From NCBI GenBank assembly GCA_003446295.1, contig DMBB01000029.1, forward strand, positions 1-6,389: DNA of 6,389 nucleotides. Direction: 5' to 3'. The notes beneath the pieces were generated by a model that was given only the letters and a program-made list of their open reading frames with translations, was not told the DNA's origin and made no database searches. Position numbers and translations under genes: made by a program. Positions 1 to 6,002 of the stretch are shown here, in pieces; position 1 is the first letter of the stretch, and every line of letters begins with the position of its first letter. The DNA is from Erysipelotrichaceae bacterium. GTDB taxonomy: Bacteria; Bacillota_I; Bacilli_A; Erysipelotrichales; Erysipelotrichaceae.

Positions 1-2305
1 CCACCAGTTCCATGATGCCGGGCACAAATACATTTCTGCCGTCGCATACCGCGTCAACTTCAACTTCTTTGCCGCTGATGTATTTATCGACAAGCACCGG
101 CTTTTCTTCATCGATCTCAACTGCTGTTTTCAGATAGTGCTTCAGCTGTTCTTCGTTGGCAACGATCTGCATCGCTCTGCCGCCAAGGACAAAGCTGGGA
201 CGGACGAGAACGGGATAACCGATCTCTTTGGCTGCAGACAGACCGTCTTCGATCTTGGTGACGGCACGGCCCTGAGGCTGAGGAATGCCGAGTTCTACAA
301 GCACTTTTTCAAAGCTGTCCCTGTTTTCTGCACGGTCGATCGCTTCAACATCCGTACCGATGATCCTGACGCCTCTCTTCATGATCGGCTCTGCCAGGTT
401 GATCGCTGTCTGTCCGCCAAGGGATGCGATGACGCCGATCGGCTTTTCAAAGTGAACGATGTTCATGACATCTTCCGGCGTCAGCGGTTCGAAGTACAGC
501 TTGTCGGACGTCTCATAGTCAGTCGAAACAGTCTCGGGGTTGCTGTTGATGATGATCGCTTCATAGCCTGCCTTGCGGATCGTCTGGACTGCGTGCACGG
601 TCGAATAGTCAAATTCAACGCCTTGTCCGATACGGATCGGGCCGGCACCGAGCACGATGATCTTTTTGCGGTCAGAGAGCACGGATGCATTTTCGCCTGT
701 ATAGGAAGAATAGTGATATGCGATATATTTGCCTGAATGCAGCGTATCCACCATTTTGAATACGGGCATCATATTGTTCTCAAGGCGCAGATTGTAGACA
801 TCCAGTTCATTCTGCTTCCAGAGCTTCGCGATGAAACGGTCGCCGAAGCCCATCTTCTTTGCCTCAAGCAGGATAGCAGTATTGCCGGGATTCGCGGCCA
901 GCTTCCGTTCCATTTCAATGATCTTGACGATCGAATCCAGGAACAGCTCCGTGATCATGGTGATCTCGTGTACCTTCTTGACGGAAACGCCGCGTCTGAG
1001 CAGTTCTGTTACGGCGAAGATATTGTCGTAGCGGAATTCCCCGACATATGACAGCAGTTCTTCTGTCGTGAAGCTGTCAAATTTAGGCATATACAGGTGA
1101 TATACACCAGTCTCCAGGGAACGGACAGACTTGAGGATGCATTCTTCAAGATTTGATCCGATGCCCATGACCTCGCCTGTTGCCTTCATCTGTGTGCCGA
1201 GCTGATTCGGCGTGTTCGGGAATTTATCAAACGGGAAGCGCGGGAATTTGGCAACGATATAATCGAGCTTCGGTTCCTTGTCTGCAGTCGTGCCTGCAAC
1301 TTCGATCTCTTCCAGAGCCATACCCATGGCGATCTTGGCAGTTACGCGTGCAATCGGATAACCGCTTGCTTTGGATGCGAGCGCTGATGAACGGGAGACA
1401 CGGGGATTGACCTCGATCAGGTAATACTCGCTTGTTTCAGGATGCAGCGCAAACTGAACGTTGCAGCCGCCTTCGATCTTCAGTTCACGGATGATCTTGA
1501 TCGCGCTGTCATTCAGCATTTTCAGATCATGGTCATTCAGTGAAAGGATCGGAGCGACAACGATGGAGTCACCTGTATGAACACCTACCGGGTCAACATT
1601 CTCCATGCCGCAGATCGTGATCGTTTTGTCATTGCTGTCGCGCATGACTTCAAATTCGATCTCTTTGTAGCCCTTGACGCTCTTTTCGATCAGTACCTGG
1701 TGTACCGGAGAAAGGTTGAATGCATTGACGCCGATCTCTACCAGTTCTTCTTCGTTGTTGGCAAAACCGCCGCCTGTTCCGCCAAGCGTGAACGCAGGTC
1801 TCAGAACGACCGGATATCCGATGTGCTTTGCCGCGAGCTTTGCTTCTTCGATATCATATGTGATCTCGGAAGGAATGACCGGTTCACCGATCTTCTGGCA
1901 CATTTCCTTGAACATCTGACGGTCTTCCGCACGTTCAATGCTTTCACGCGGAGTTCCGCACAGTTCAACGCCGCACTCCTTCAGGACGCCCTTTTTATCA
2001 AGCTGTACGGCTAGATTCAGACCCGTCTGTCCGCCGATGCCCGGAACGATCGCGTCCGGTCTTTCATAGCGCAGGATCTTCGCAATATATTCAAGTGTCA
2101 GCGGCTCCATATAGACTTTGTCAGCCATCTGGGTATCGGTCATGATCGTTGCAGGGTTGGAATTGCAAAGCACCACCTCATACCCTTCTTCCCGCAAAGC
2201 GATGCAAGCCTGTGTACCGGCGTAGTCAAATTCTGCCGCCTGTCCGATAACGATTGGGCCGGAGCCGATGATCAATACTTTTTTGATGTCTGTTCTCTTT
2301 GCCAT
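1..2305 (-). CDS. carB: Carbamoyl-phosphate synthase large subunit (3' end beyond window)
   Basis: The large subunit of carbamoyl-phosphate synthase makes carbamoyl phosphate from bicarbonate, ATP and glutamine-derived ammonia, the shared precursor of pyrimidines and arginine, in the cytosol. I translated the minus strand and found 768 uninterrupted codons from the ATG at 2305 to the window edge. The N-terminus reads [22 protein letters not shown], the classic CarB start. Residues 1-402 form the carboxyphosphate ATP-grasp half, with [10 protein letters not shown] (48-57), [12 protein letters not shown] (169-180) and [16 protein letters not shown] (298-313). Residues ~403-545 are the oligomerisation region. 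The second, carbamoyl-phosphate half starts near 546 ([28 protein letters not shown] at 588-597, [11 protein letters not shown] at 702-712). The roughly 300 missing residues would hold the rest of that half and the allosteric domain. The ribosome binding site is TAAGGAGG just before the ATG. carA is not upstream; instead there is a terminator-bearing leader with a small reading frame. Confidence 0.98.
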
Positions 2306-2314
2306 ACTTCCTCC

Positions 2315-2428
2315 TTATTTGGTCACAATAAAGAAAAACCGGTCCTGGCAATGTGCAAATACATTGCGGAACCGGTAAAAACCACTCTCTTTCCGGATAA
2401 CAATTGGATGTTTCACAATATGCTTCAT
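2315..2428 (-). CDS. Putative 37-residue leader peptide of carB
   Basis: A short frame starts at the ATG at 2428 behind a moderate ribosome binding site (AGGGGTG, 4 bases before the ATG) and stops with a TAA at 2317-2315 that forms part of the carB Shine-Dalgarno sequence (AAATAAGGAGG). It begins MKHIVKHPIVIRK and ends QDRFFFIVTK. The peptide is basic and aromatic, with no recognisable domain, membrane segment or signal peptide. Arginine codons are at positions 12, 19, 21 and 30, three of them CGG. Codons 19-30 lie in the terminator stem-loop and codons 31-33 (TTT TTC TTT) are its U-tract. The arrangement resembles E. coli PyrL, the pyrBI leader peptide, which also runs through a terminator with a Phe-Phe-Phe stretch. 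This is an inference from position and structure; the frame could instead be a chance opening. A GTG one frame over (2435) is a competing but less attractive start, since its frame runs into carB out of phase. Confidence 0.45.
   Translation of the reverse strand: MKHIVKHPIVIRKESGFYRFRNVFAHCQDRFFFIVTK
2330..2376 (-). terminator. Intrinsic terminator / attenuator ahead of carB
   Basis: On the minus strand the 5' arm ACCGGTTCCGCAATGT (2376-2361) pairs with a 3' arm ACATTGC-CA-GGA-CCGGT (2354-2338) around the loop ATTTGC. This gives about 15 base pairs with one bulged T and a two-base bulge. TTTTTCTTT follows directly. It lies only 25 bases before the carB start codon and inside the small leader frame, so it can act as a conditional attenuator and not only as the end of the upstream unit. 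A run of five Ts (2377-2381) sits just before the 5' arm, a place where polymerase pausing would matter in a UTP-sensed mechanism. Confidence 0.85.
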
Positions 2429-2484
2429 AGTACACCCCTATCTGGTCAGTTTTTCATAACCGGTACTGCTCCCGGCCATTTGAA

Positions 2485-2513
2485 AGGCTACCATCTTATG
2501 CCGCATGTGTCAA
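2485..2513 (-). promoter_or_regulatory. Candidate proximal carB promoter
   Basis: A second perfect TTGACA (2513-2508) is followed after exactly 17 bases by TAGCCT (2490-2485). That hexamer matches only the three most conserved -10 positions (TA...T). Transcription from here would start near 2478 and give a leader of about 170 bases containing the small frame and the terminator. The ARG-box-like palindrome lies just upstream of the -35. Confidence 0.3.
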
Positions 2514-2635: not shown

Positions 2636-4579
2636 TCAGTTTCCTCTGATGATCCTTCCGTTTTCATCCAGCCTGGGCATCTCCACCGGAAGCTTTCCAT
2701 GCACCTCAGACATGCCGAAGCAGGCACATAAAGCATACAGCAGATTCGGCATCTGACCGATATAAGGCTGTTCTGTCATCTCCGGCATCAAGGATGAGCC
2801 GTATGTCAGCAATATCCCGTCGGCTTCAGAGAACCTTGCCGCATCATAAGGCAGGTGTGCTGACACAAGGATCACCTTCCTGCCGTCGGAGTGTCTTTGT
2901 TCAATAATCCTGTCAAACAGTGCTGCTGAATAGCCGTCATTGGTGCGCGCATCCAGGCAGTCTTCCGAGTATGTTCTGTATACAAGGATCACGTGATCAG
3001 CCTCTTTTGCCGCATTGAAGCAATCTTCGGTATTGTTCGGTTTATGGACCATCACAGAGATCTTTGAAGCATCTTGTATGACGCCCTGCTCCAGCATGAT
3101 ATCTGCCGCATGCTGTCCCTGGCCGAGTCTGCTGGCGCTGTTGTTGGCAAACAGGATCAGTGTCTTCTCATCATTCTGCAGGCTGATCGGGAATGCCTGA
3201 TCGTGATTCTGATAGAGCGTCACAGCCTGTCCGGCAAGCTTCCATGCAGTTTCAATATGCTCCGCGCTTCCCACCCCGTTTACGGCAGCCTTGATCTGAT
3301 CCTCCGTAACCGTGAAGTCCTTCTGATCAAGCAGACCGTATTTCTTTTTCAATGTCAGTATGCGCCGTACGGATTCATCTATGCGCTCAGAACTGATCTT
3401 TCCTTCTTCAGCCAGTCTGATCGCTGTTTCCGTCAGTTCGATACTCTCATGAAACATTTCAGTGCTTTTGACTGCAGGAAACAGCAGCAGATCCACGCCG
3501 GCATTGATTGTCATGCACAGCATATCTTCATCTGAAAAGTGATCTTTGATCGCAGCCATATCCAGTGCATCGGATATGACCACGCCTTTATATCCCATAT
3601 CATTTCTGAGAATATCCGTCAGGATCGTTCTGCTCATCGTTGCCGGCAAATATACCCGTTCACCGGTCGATACGGATGTGTATGTCTGTGTTTCGATCTG
3701 AGGATACTGGATATGTGCCGTCATGACCATATCCGCCCCGCCATCGATCGCTTTTTTGAACGGGATCAGCTCGCACTGCTGCAGTTCTTCATATGTGCTG
3801 CGGATACACGGAAATCCGGTATGACTGTCCGTATCAGTATTGCCGTGTCCCGGAAAATGCTTCAGCGCAGCGATCGTTCCCTGATCATGCAGTCCCTGCA
3901 TATAGGAAAGACCATATGCAGCAACTTTCTCCGGATCATCCGAGAATGAACGGATCGCGATGACAGGATTGGCAGGTTCATTATTGACGTCCATATCCGG
4001 CGCCAAGTCAGTATTGATGCCAAGCAGCCTGAGTTCTTCTCCGTATATGGATGCCATGGTCCTGGCGTTTTCCGTGCTGCCCGAGGCACATAAGGCCATG
4101 TTTCCCGGACCTGATGTTCCGTACTTGACACGTGTGACATAGCCGCCTTCCTGATCTGCGGAAATCAGCAGCGGAATACTGCTGATGCTCTGCAGGCCGG
4201 ATATCAGTCTGAGCGTCTGTTCCGGATCACGGAGATTTTCCGCAAACAGCAGGATCCCCCCATAATGGTATCTGCCGATGGCTTCACGGATCTCATCATT
4301 CAATTCCGTGACGTTGTTTTTCTGCGCATCACCCCATATACGATATGAAGGCATGATCATCTGACCCACTTTTTCCTCCAGTGTCATTCCTTCCAGTATT
4401 GCTTCAATTTCCATATCAGCCGATTCCGTTTCGACCGGTTCCGCAGTCTCCTGTTCAGGTTCCTCTGTTTCACCTTCAGGCTGTTTGTTCGTGCATCCGG
4501 AACATGCAAAAAACAATGCATGGCAAAGTATGATCGCTGAGGATCTGCTGAGCAGCTTTATGATTGAACGTCCTGTCAT
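2636..4579 (-). CDS. nagZ: Lipoprotein family-3 glycoside hydrolase, beta-N-acetylhexosaminidase (NagZ-type)
   Basis: This 647-residue exported enzyme most likely removes N-acetylglucosamine from peptidoglycan fragments (murein turnover) at the outer face of the membrane. Its length and layout match Bacillus NagZ (YbbD, about 640 residues). Residues 1-25 form a signal peptide (basic start, hydrophobic SAIILCHALFFA), followed by two lipobox-like cysteines (C26, C29) and an acidic Glu/Pro/Thr linker (~33-55). The catalytic TIM barrel follows: SADQEGG (141-147), KHFPGHGNTDTDSH (240-253) with the Asp251/His253 acid-base dyad, and SDALDM with the nucleophile Asp337. The dyad-to-nucleophile spacing of 86 residues equals that of the Bacillus enzyme. 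A C-terminal alpha/beta domain ends with GKLPVEMP. I chose the ATG at 4579 over an upstream TTG at 4630 because AAAGGA precedes it and the signal peptide begins there; the TTG lies in a terminator. Specificity for muropeptides and not chitin-like sugars is inferred. Confidence 0.9.
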   Translation of the reverse strand: MTGRSIIKLLSRSSAIILCHALFFACSGCTNKQPEGETEEPEQETAEPVETESADMEIEAILEGMTLEEKVGQMIMPSYRIWGDAQKNNVTELNDEIREAIGRYHYGGILLFAENLRDPEQTLRLISGLQSISSIPLLISADQEGGYVTRVKYGTSGPGNMALCASGSTENARTMASIYGEELRLLGINTDLAPDMDVNNEPANPVIAIRSFSDDPEKVAAYGLSYMQGLHDQGTIAALKHFPGHGNTDTDSHTGFPCIRSTYEELQQCELIPFKKAIDGGADMVMTAHIQYPQIETQTYTSVSTGERVYLPATMSRTILTDILRNDMGYKGVVISDALDMAAIKDHFSDEDMLCMTINAGVDLLLFPAVKSTEMFHESIELTETAIRLAEEGKISSERIDESVRRILTLKKKYGLLDQKDFTVTEDQIKAAVNGVGSAEHIETAWKLAGQAVTLYQNHDQAFPISLQNDEKTLILFANNSASRLGQGQHAADIMLEQGVIQDASKISVMVHKPNNTEDCFNAAKEADHVILVYRTYSEDCLDARTNDGYSAALFDRIIEQRHSDGRKVILVSAHLPYDAARFSEADGILLTYGSSLMPEMTEQPYIGQMPNLLYALCACFGMSEVHGKLPVEMPRLDENGRIIRGN

Positions 4580-4627
4580 GATACGTTTCCTTTCAGATTC
4601 AAGAAATATCTGTAAGATACCATACCA

Positions 4628-4653
4628 CAAAAACGGAGGACGTGTGCCCTCCG
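4628..4653 (-). terminator. Intrinsic terminator after the alcohol dehydrogenase
   Basis: CGGAGGGC-ACAC-GTCCTCCG forms an 8-pair stem (one G-T wobble) on the minus strand and is followed by TTTTTG. It lies 17 bases after the dehydrogenase stop codon and about 50 bases before the hydrolase ATG, so the two genes are probably not one simple operon. Confidence 0.88.
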
Positions 4654-4669
4654 CCTGATATGATCTAAG

Positions 4670-5875
4670 CTATTCGGTGATCCTGATCGTATCGATCAGT
4701 TTTCTGAAGTCCTTATATTTCCAGATGACAGGAACCGGATACAGGGGATTGGCTTCCTTATCCGCCCATTTGATGATCTGGTCGATATCTTCTTCCCTGA
4801 TGCAGTCAAAGCCCTTCGGTATATCCATCTTCCGGTTCATTTCTTCGATCCAATCAATAAACGCTTCGGCTTTTTCTTTACTGTCTGCTCCTGTTATACC
4901 GCATACATCAGCCAGGTCTGCCAGTTTGTCATATACTGCAGGACCGAACTGTCTCATCACATGAGGCAGGATCACTGCCATCGCAAGACCATGCGGTACC
5001 CCGTACAGTCCGCCAAGGGTATGTCCTACAGCATGCACGTAACCGACACAGCCTCTCGTGAATGCTCTGCCGGCGTGGAACGCTGCCAGCTGCATCTTTG
5101 CCCGTGCTTCCAGATCCGTGCCATCCTCATATGCCCTGTAAAGATAGTCATGGATCAGACGGACAGCTTCCTTCGCCCTGTCGTCTTCTTCTTTTGTGTT
5201 GTAGTAGTGATTTGTATATGCCTCCACAGCATGACACAGTGCATCCATGCCTGTGGTCGCAGTGATCTTTTTCGGCAGTCCGACTGTCAGTTCCGGATCA
5301 AGCACTGCGTATCTGGGCAGGATCGAAGGATCGTTGATGGAAGCTTTATGATGCGTAGCTGCTTCCGTGATCACCGCAGCCAGCGTCGTTTCCGAACCGG
5401 TCCCGGATGTTGTGGGGACCGCCCAGAACGGAACGATTGGCCAGTGCACTTTCAGGATCCCCTGCATCTGGGAAACTGTTTTGCGGGGATGTGCGTTTTT
5501 CGCTGCGATCCCTTTTGCGCAGTCGATCGGAGACCCGCCTCCGAACGCTACGATCGCCTGGCAGTAATTCTCTTTGAATATACGGTATCCCTCTTCCACA
5601 TTCTCATCAGTCGGATTGGGCTGGATATCTGCGAAGATCACATATTCCAGATGCGCCTCTTTCATTGCCTTGATCAGTCCGTCAGGAAGTCCGATCTTCA
5701 GCAGGCTCTGGTCTGTAACCAGCAGAACTTTGTAGATGCCCTTTTCACGTATCATCTTAGGCAGTTTTTTCACAGAACCGGGTCCCTCGATATATTCGGG
5801 CGTCCGGTAGCCGAGGAAGTAGTTGCCGATTTTCATCCCTGTCTGAAAAGCACGGCAATATAATCTGTTTGCCAT
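4670..5875 (-). CDS. Iron-containing (group III) alcohol dehydrogenase
   Basis: This 401-residue cytosolic oxidoreductase should interconvert an alcohol and an aldehyde or ketone using NAD(P)H and a divalent metal, usually Fe2+. The nucleotide-binding domain shows GGGSPIDCAKG (112-122) and PTTSGTGSE (154-162). The all-helical metal domain shows GMDALCHAVEAY with ligands Asp211 and His215, then YVHAVGHTLGGLYGVPHG with ligands His281 and His295. The His-x13-His spacing is that of FucO-type enzymes, so all four expected metal ligands are present. I chose the ATG at 5875 because AGAAAGGA lies 8 bases before it and the protein then begins MANRLYCRAFQ, which looks like a natural N-terminus. An in-frame ATG at 5941 preceded by AAAAGGG would add 22 residues and cannot be excluded. 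The TTSGTGSE form is closer to FucO/AdhB than to YqhD/BdhA, but the substrate cannot be read from the sequence. The gene has its own promoter and terminator. Confidence 0.95.
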   Translation of the reverse strand: MANRLYCRAFQTGMKIGNYFLGYRTPEYIEGPGSVKKLPKMIREKGIYKVLLVTDQSLLKIGLPDGLIKAMKEAHLEYVIFADIQPNPTDENVEEGYRIFKENYCQAIVAFGGGSPIDCAKGIAAKNAHPRKTVSQMQGILKVHWPIVPFWAVPTTSGTGSETTLAAVITEAATHHKASINDPSILPRYAVLDPELTVGLPKKITATTGMDALCHAVEAYTNHYYNTKEEDDRAKEAVRLIHDYLYRAYEDGTDLEARAKMQLAAFHAGRAFTRGCVGYVHAVGHTLGGLYGVPHGLAMAVILPHVMRQFGPAVYDKLADLADVCGITGADSKEKAEAFIDWIEEMNRKMDIPKGFDCIREEDIDQIIKWADKEANPLYPVPVIWKYKDFRKLIDTIRITE

Positions 5876-6002
5876 ATTCCATTCCTTTCTGCTTTTCATC
5901 TTCAAAAGCATGTTTTCGCATGGAAAGACAGGATCATTCATCGTTCATGATCCCTTTTCGATATTCGTAAATGATTGCGGTTTATGATCAGCTTCTTATT
6001 CT

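Follow-up and report, generated by a model that had tools for sequence, protein, structure and literature searches.

The window, as the whole 6,389-nucleotide stretch of Erysipelotrichaceae DNA analyzed here is called, carries carB, the gene for the large subunit of carbamoyl-phosphate synthase (NF003671, 1124.6 bits), on its minus strand (2305..2). The gene starts at ATG 2305 and is truncated by the window end. The elements upstream of it are read on the same strand. A predicted promoter (2513..2485) is composed of TTGACA (2513-2508), a spacer of 17 nt and TAGCCT (2490-2485), and inspection of relatives' sequences found TTGACA (TTGACT in G054) and a TAnnnT box upstream of their carB leaders as well. 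A leader frame of 37 codons (2428-2315) begins at ATG 2428 behind a Shine-Dalgarno (SD) sequence, AGGGG (2439-2435), and ends with TAA 2317-2315, which overlaps the carB SD (TAAGGAGG). Within this frame a U5 run (2381-2377), a candidate UTP-sensitive pause, lies directly 5′ of a predicted intrinsic terminator hairpin (2376-2338) with 8+7 pairs and a 6-nt loop. The hairpin, whose counterpart is formed by the PGF..HVH..REPGF codons of pyrC, runs into a U-tract (UUUUCUUU, 2337-2330), and this tract plus the last U of the hairpin is read as Phe-Phe-Phe. Farther upstream on the minus strand are a beta-N-acetylhexosaminidase-like glycosidase (2636-4630) and an iron-containing alcohol dehydrogenase (4670-5941), both under the NCBIfam equivalog cut-off.

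A preliminary description of this DNA had named a 15-pair terminator with its U-tract lying wholly in the SD-bearing frame, the Phe-Phe-Phe reading, the TAA in the carB SD and a T-run before the hairpin, and all of these are present. The 66-nt hairpin piece folds at -22.1 kcal/mol (z -4.11), a value reached by 0/200 shuffles. Over the full 151 nt of the leader the fold stands out less (z -1.71; 10/200 shuffles as good), and a generic scan of the window for simple terminators and promoters listed neither this hairpin nor this promoter. In the predicted fold of the window (minus strand, 2337-2306) the U-tract pairs with the carB SD, and similar folds are predicted for some relatives; an additional translational layer at the carB SD is therefore possible.

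Related loci were collected with a CarB scan of genome contigs, from which the best 80 of 495 loci were taken. Going by their titles ('Solobacterium sp.' or uncultured Erysipelotrichaceae), the loci designated L001-L013 belong to the Erysipelotrichaceae. Eleven of these 13 have the leader arrangement before carB, L009 and L013 have pyrC there, and in the neighborhoods of seven leader loci no pyr gene was recognized adjoining carB. The leader set used below (n=20) comprises the window and 19 Erysipelotrichaceae genomes, drawn from these loci and from 70 genomes of the same group. An alignment of related leaders had been proposed as a check in the preliminary description, and relatives keep both frame and hairpin: all 20 leaders have an ATG frame of 24-42 codons, counted in G011 and G012 from 8 codons upstream of the SD-led ATG, and a hairpin with a U-tract. 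An SD-led ATG frame reaching the hairpin is seen in 19/19 carB leaders against 1.26 expected from dinucleotide shuffles; the hairpin positions used in such counts, here and for the pyrB and pyrC leaders below, were assigned by reading the sequences, and the counts are thus not blind. A run of U4 or longer stands just before the hairpin in 12/19 carB leaders and is missing in 7/19. As read from the sequences, nine of the 20 leaders enter the hairpin in one reading frame and 11 in the other.

The frame overlaps the terminator in such a way that a ribosome would block the hairpin, with the stop codon inside the hairpin in 17/20 leaders and beyond it in 3/20. These three are the window, G005 (stop 2 nt before carB) and G054 (stop 17 nt before carB); in G001, whose CarB is 98% identical, the leader frame stops inside the hairpin. 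A stop within the carB SD was considered as a conserved function and rejected on these counts. Translational coupling of the leader to carB, which had been suggested from the window, is consequently not a general feature, because the stop in the carB SD is unconserved. The stem itself is maintained. In leader alignment A2 (17 sequences, 16 distinct), 93.0% of stem cells are paired and the covariation score of 0.309 was reached by 0/500 shuffles, but the three pairs with double changes were equalled by 107/500 shuffles.

Similar layouts are found on the other pyr units surveyed in the leader genomes. The survey of the 19 genomes covered carB, pyrB and pyrC, and pyrB and pyrC leaders were located by reading upstream regions. 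In eleven genomes pyrBI is of the native type, and the pyrC cluster, seemingly with pyrC first, is xenologous. The native pyrB leaders have an ATG frame reaching the terminator in 11/11 cases, with an SD in 7/11 (shuffle expectation 0.40 with SD and 4.3 without the SD requirement). Of the xenologous pyrC leaders, 11/11 contain a frame that is preceded by an SD and extends to the terminator (0.45 with SD and 5.0 without the requirement). The remaining eight genomes (pyrB loci L229-L234, L257, L258) carry a xenologous pyrB with an intragenic hairpin, 8/8. This hairpin consists of GATTGGCA..TGCCAATC, or a close variant, and CTTTTTTTT or CTCTTTTTT (T6-8) comes after it; it codes for DWQL..ANLFFE at about codons 33-48, the Asn lying 44 codons from the start. 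These hairpins are modestly more stable than the mean synonymous recoding (z -1.2 to -2.4), with several close relatives among them. U content in the last 28 nt before the hairpin is raised over that farther upstream for carB (0.36/0.23), pyrB (0.47/0.25) and pyrC (0.45/0.23). Leader peptides are not conserved between the units, and the units share a design, not one sequence, because strong matches to the leader model R1, described below, occur only before carB. In the four native pyrB leaders that lack an SD (G003, G004, G005 and G060; L240, L246, L247 and L248), the ATG is close behind the -10 box, an arrangement resembling leaderless mRNAs.

PyrR was searched for in the 70 genomes with model NF003549 at its cut-off and was found in 25. 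It is present in 15/19 relatives with a pyrC-carB operon versus 0/19 leader genomes, a set that includes many metagenome-assembled genomes and does not include the window's own. Single absences mean little because so many of the genomes are metagenome-assembled. A PyrR site that could account for the control had also been named as a point to check: no Rfam family (riboswitch, T-box or PyrR site) reached its gathering score in the window or in five other carB-leader loci, which is a weak test for PyrR-binding RNA, since in the pyrC genomes Rfam missed a look-alike of the PyrR site as well. That look-alike is a conserved element, ATCTTTAA..CGATA..GAGA..TCGGCAAG, found in most of the pyrC 5′ UTRs of L179-L197 and followed in several by a terminator of its own. 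We take this element (CTTTAA..CGATA..GAGA..TCG) to resemble a PyrR site.

The origin of the carB hairpin was traced with a covariance model, R1, which was built from 17 leaders and used to search the 70 genomes under stricter filters. All 19 strong matches lie before carB, and a further 20 matches are weak (E 0.002-0.08). Eighteen of the weak matches fall at one place, about 1.1-1.2 kb upstream of carB; of the 19 pyrC-carB genomes, 18 are represented there and G070 has no R1 match. Reading of 11 match sites and of the pyrC 5′ ends of the 19 genomes located the site in the 5′ part of pyrC, where the hairpin DNA codes for PGF(C/T)DVHVH(L/F)REPGFSYK, a dihydroorotase motif. The 3′ part of the leader frame corresponds to this 5′ part of pyrC. 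Nine leaders, those of the first reading frame, have the phase of pyrC, and remnants of the protein are still legible in G007 (YPGF), G008 (IFPGC) and G054 (SFPGCIMYFRIMRPGFLS). The distance from start to motif is about 20-22 codons in 10/19 pyrC genes and 17-21 in the leaders, and an SD with ATG occurs at the place given by the R1 model in four of the 11 pyrC sites read (L139, L140, L141 and L147). The genomes nearest to the leader group (G009, G013, G062 and G031) differ: their pyrC starts 38 codons ahead of the motif, out of line with the leader start codons. The descent of the hairpin part of the leader from pyrC is well supported by these sequences; descent of the leader start codon from the pyrC start is conjectural.

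In pyrC the hairpin is under strong synonymous constraint as part of the coding sequence. It occurs in the 5′ part of pyrC in L138-L148, L179-L197 and the pyrC-bearing loci among L015-L080. Synonymous diversity over the 19 hairpin codons of 19 pyrC genes, some of them near-copies, is 0.228, compared with 0.524 +- 0.044 in other windows of the gene, the lowest of which is at 0.413; 0/20000 random draws were as low. A second set was drawn from 67 other loci, of which those without an intact motif or enough sequence were dropped; the 56 kept are, by title, almost all Clostridia. Here hairpin-codon diversity is 0.326 versus 0.602 +- 0.034, again with 0/20000 draws as low. The first Pro codon is CCC in 55/56 of these loci, the second is CCG in 56/56 and the next Phe codon is TTT in 56/56; Pro codons elsewhere in pyrC vary. 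The third bases of a Gly and a Glu codon covary over 57 loci (25 C-G, 0 C-A, 18 T-G, 14 T-A; Fisher 8.3e-5, uncorrected for relatedness). Over 65 distinct segments, 99.4% of stem cells are paired, with double changes at 1/8 pairs, and z-scores of single-gene hairpins against synonymous recoding are modest.

As a control, genomes of the phylum were searched. Of 295 genomes, 49 had a PyrC match at E <= 1e-70; 30 loci were taken, and 19 of them showed the motif pattern. The CCGGG-TTTTTC end is present in two of these 19 (70-72% identity) and absent in 17, one of which, L216, has a weaker look-alike, CCAGG..CCTGG-TTTT. Where the upstream sequence sufficed, no pyr gene was recognized directly before pyrC, as judged from 40 neighbor residues. 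PyrR was found in 28/50 genomes behind the Clostridia-type pyrC loci, so that intragenic hairpin and PyrR coexist; the hairpin in pyrC is not simply a substitute for PyrR, because it is present in PyrR-bearing genomes too. On balance we favor a reading in which the PGFxDVHVHxREPGF codons double as a terminator in Clostridia and Erysipelotrichia, with the enzyme's N-terminus serving as the leader peptide of its operon. After loss of pyrC this segment would have become the carB leader, in a clade where no PyrR was found and which would have coupled attenuators on other pyr units, one of them inside pyrB.

The phylogeny of CarB is in line with this history. The tree (36 proteins, midpoint root) comprises 17 leader rows and 12 of the 19 pyrC rows; two leader rows that were too short and one near-copy were left out, and one outgroup gave no protein. 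A single branch sets all 17 leader rows apart, next to pyrC-carB genomes; its support (84/64) for one leader group is modest, and 77% of bootstrap trees have one change. G054, whose leader is still in the pyrC frame, is the first branch within this group, and most outgroup loci also have pyrC before carB. Upstream of pyrC in G062, G031 and G009 the promoter layout is TTGACA-17-TAnnnT-TTTAC or -TTAC, as in the leaders. The simplest history consistent with these sequences is that the body of pyrC was lost, and that its promoter, a short frame and the hairpin were left before carB. Since the counterpart of the hairpin sits in the 5′ part of pyrC, under strong synonymous constraint, the carB hairpin is probably a relic of pyrC, retained for attenuation when the gene body was lost. 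All 19 leader genomes carry a more distant pyrC elsewhere (39-51% identity), and G001 and G029 have a third type of pyrC (upstream regions L259 and L260).

In E. coli pyrBI, low UTP slows the polymerase, and the leader has a U-rich stretch. In the carB leader as in the pyrBI leader (pyrL), a pyrimidine gene is preceded by an intrinsic terminator that a leader frame overlaps. In E. coli, tight coupling across the pyrBI leader prevents the terminator, as stated in PMC5021804. We consider it likely that the carB element is a transcription attenuator that works like that of pyrBI, coupled to translation, sensing UTP and operating without PyrR, with a hairpin that came from pyrC. Polymerase would transcribe the SD-led short frame and then the terminator. 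With the ribosome far behind, the hairpin would form and transcription would halt before carB; at low UTP the polymerase would slow at the U-rich stretch before the hairpin, allowing the ribosome to get as far as the 5′ arm of the hairpin, or a stop codon within it, to keep the hairpin open and to permit transcription of carB. In this scheme the frame would be translated and the hairpin would terminate in vivo, with the position of the ribosome as the putative switch and UTP as the putative signal. In the ancestral arrangement, with pyrC upstream of carB, the codons of the catalytic motif would already have formed the terminator, and loss of the gene body would have let promoter, short frame and hairpin stay as the carB leader.

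The preliminary description had proposed pyrBI-like logic in place of PyrR control. What stands of this is a frame whose start signals are tied to the terminator and the distribution of PyrR among leader and pyrC-carB genomes, and the recurrence of the frame-into-terminator design on other units (pyrB 11/11, pyrC 11/11, inside pyrB 8/8) supports it further; its arginine variant does not stand, and the stop in the carB SD is not conserved. The description did not include the hairpin within the coding sequence of pyrC or the probable descent of the leader hairpin from that gene. The position of gene-end terminators is a point against the proposed switch. In PMC7858274, a short distance from stop codon to terminator is given as a proxy for 'runaway' transcription, and transcription in B. 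subtilis is described as running ahead of translation. Gene-end terminators in ten of the present loci start at a median of 9.5 nt after the stop codon, 10/16 of them within 12 nt. Because they start so near the stop codons, ribosomes may usually trail far behind. With trailing ribosomes, termination would be the default and readthrough would require a slowed polymerase, which would suit a UTP switch.

Other readings of the leader differ in what they take as the signal. Readthrough could depend on translation itself, through the initiation rate, charged tRNA or antibiotics, and not on UTP. This is consistent with peptides that differ between units and with the seven carB leaders that lack a U-run, but the design recurs on each pyr unit examined (carB, pyrB and pyrC) with U enriched before the hairpin, and we regard a general sensor of translation as unlikely. 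An amino acid signal fares worse. The preliminary description had suggested that ribosomes stalled at Arg codons 12, 19 and 21 of the window frame (CGG, CGG, CGC) would cover the hairpin, and carbamoyl phosphate also feeds arginine synthesis. Across 18 leader peptides, however, the frames hold 0-4 Arg codons at variable positions, with none in G007 and one each in G006, G069 and G051. The class of arginine leader peptides, with its conserved run of control codons, was rejected for this element, and arginine sensing is the least credible of the readings weighed here. With no conserved control codon and with differing peptides, an amino acid is less likely to be what is sensed than the race of the ribosome with polymerase.

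A regulator acting on the RNA would make translation secondary: an RNA-binding protein or small RNA might govern the hairpin or the start of the frame, and the folded 5′ UTRs before the leader SD could offer it a target. Rfam gave no match, and strong R1 matches are limited to carB, with the pyr leaders alike in design and not in sequence, so that control of this type seems improbable. That the hairpin resembles pyrC coding DNA would also be expected of a functionless leftover of that gene. Although the leaders no longer encode the protein, they retain stem, U-tract, SD and start codon, and the frame that passes through the hairpin differs between groups, which makes an idle relic very improbable. 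The UTP-sensing, translation-coupled attenuator remains the reading that we prefer.

Several known systems share parts of this design. The carB leader differs from E. coli pyrBI in its Firmicute host, in the 17/20 frames that stop inside the hairpin and in the pyrC origin of that hairpin, and also in that related hairpins are embedded in the coding part of the operon's first gene (pyrC, pyrB). In the E. coli pyrE attenuator the frame ends by the hairpin and is a complete upstream gene. Several xenologous pyrC leader frames likewise end adjoining the terminator hairpin, although the frame here is a mini-frame. In Bacillus-type pyr operons, premature termination needs PyrR. The carB leader shares with them premature termination before pyr genes and differs in the lack of PyrR hits among the 19 leader genomes and of Rfam matches. 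Bacilli are also described, in PMC2965389, as having histidine leader peptides with histidine codons before hisS and hisZ genes. These are further cases of leader-peptide attenuation in Firmicutes, set apart by their histidine codons.

The most surprising part of these results is the origin of a leader in coding sequence; leader-peptide attenuation itself is already known. Ribosome-coupled pyrimidine attenuation is the textbook case of enteric bacteria, and Firmicutes are known for PyrR. In the literature searched, which excluded most subscription journals, neither a Firmicute carB leader frame nor an attenuator within pyrC or pyrB was reported. If the proposed reading is true, PyrR-free attenuators, of which some lie in enzyme codons and one is left over from a gene, would illustrate how leader frames can arise; they would also allow the coupling of ribosome and polymerase in such Firmicutes to be tested directly. 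A second CPSase, possibly a CarA-CarB fusion, is encoded by many of the genomes in a reading frame of about 1345 residues (e.g., G011:C5:84166); in G011 and G012 it is located near pyrBI.
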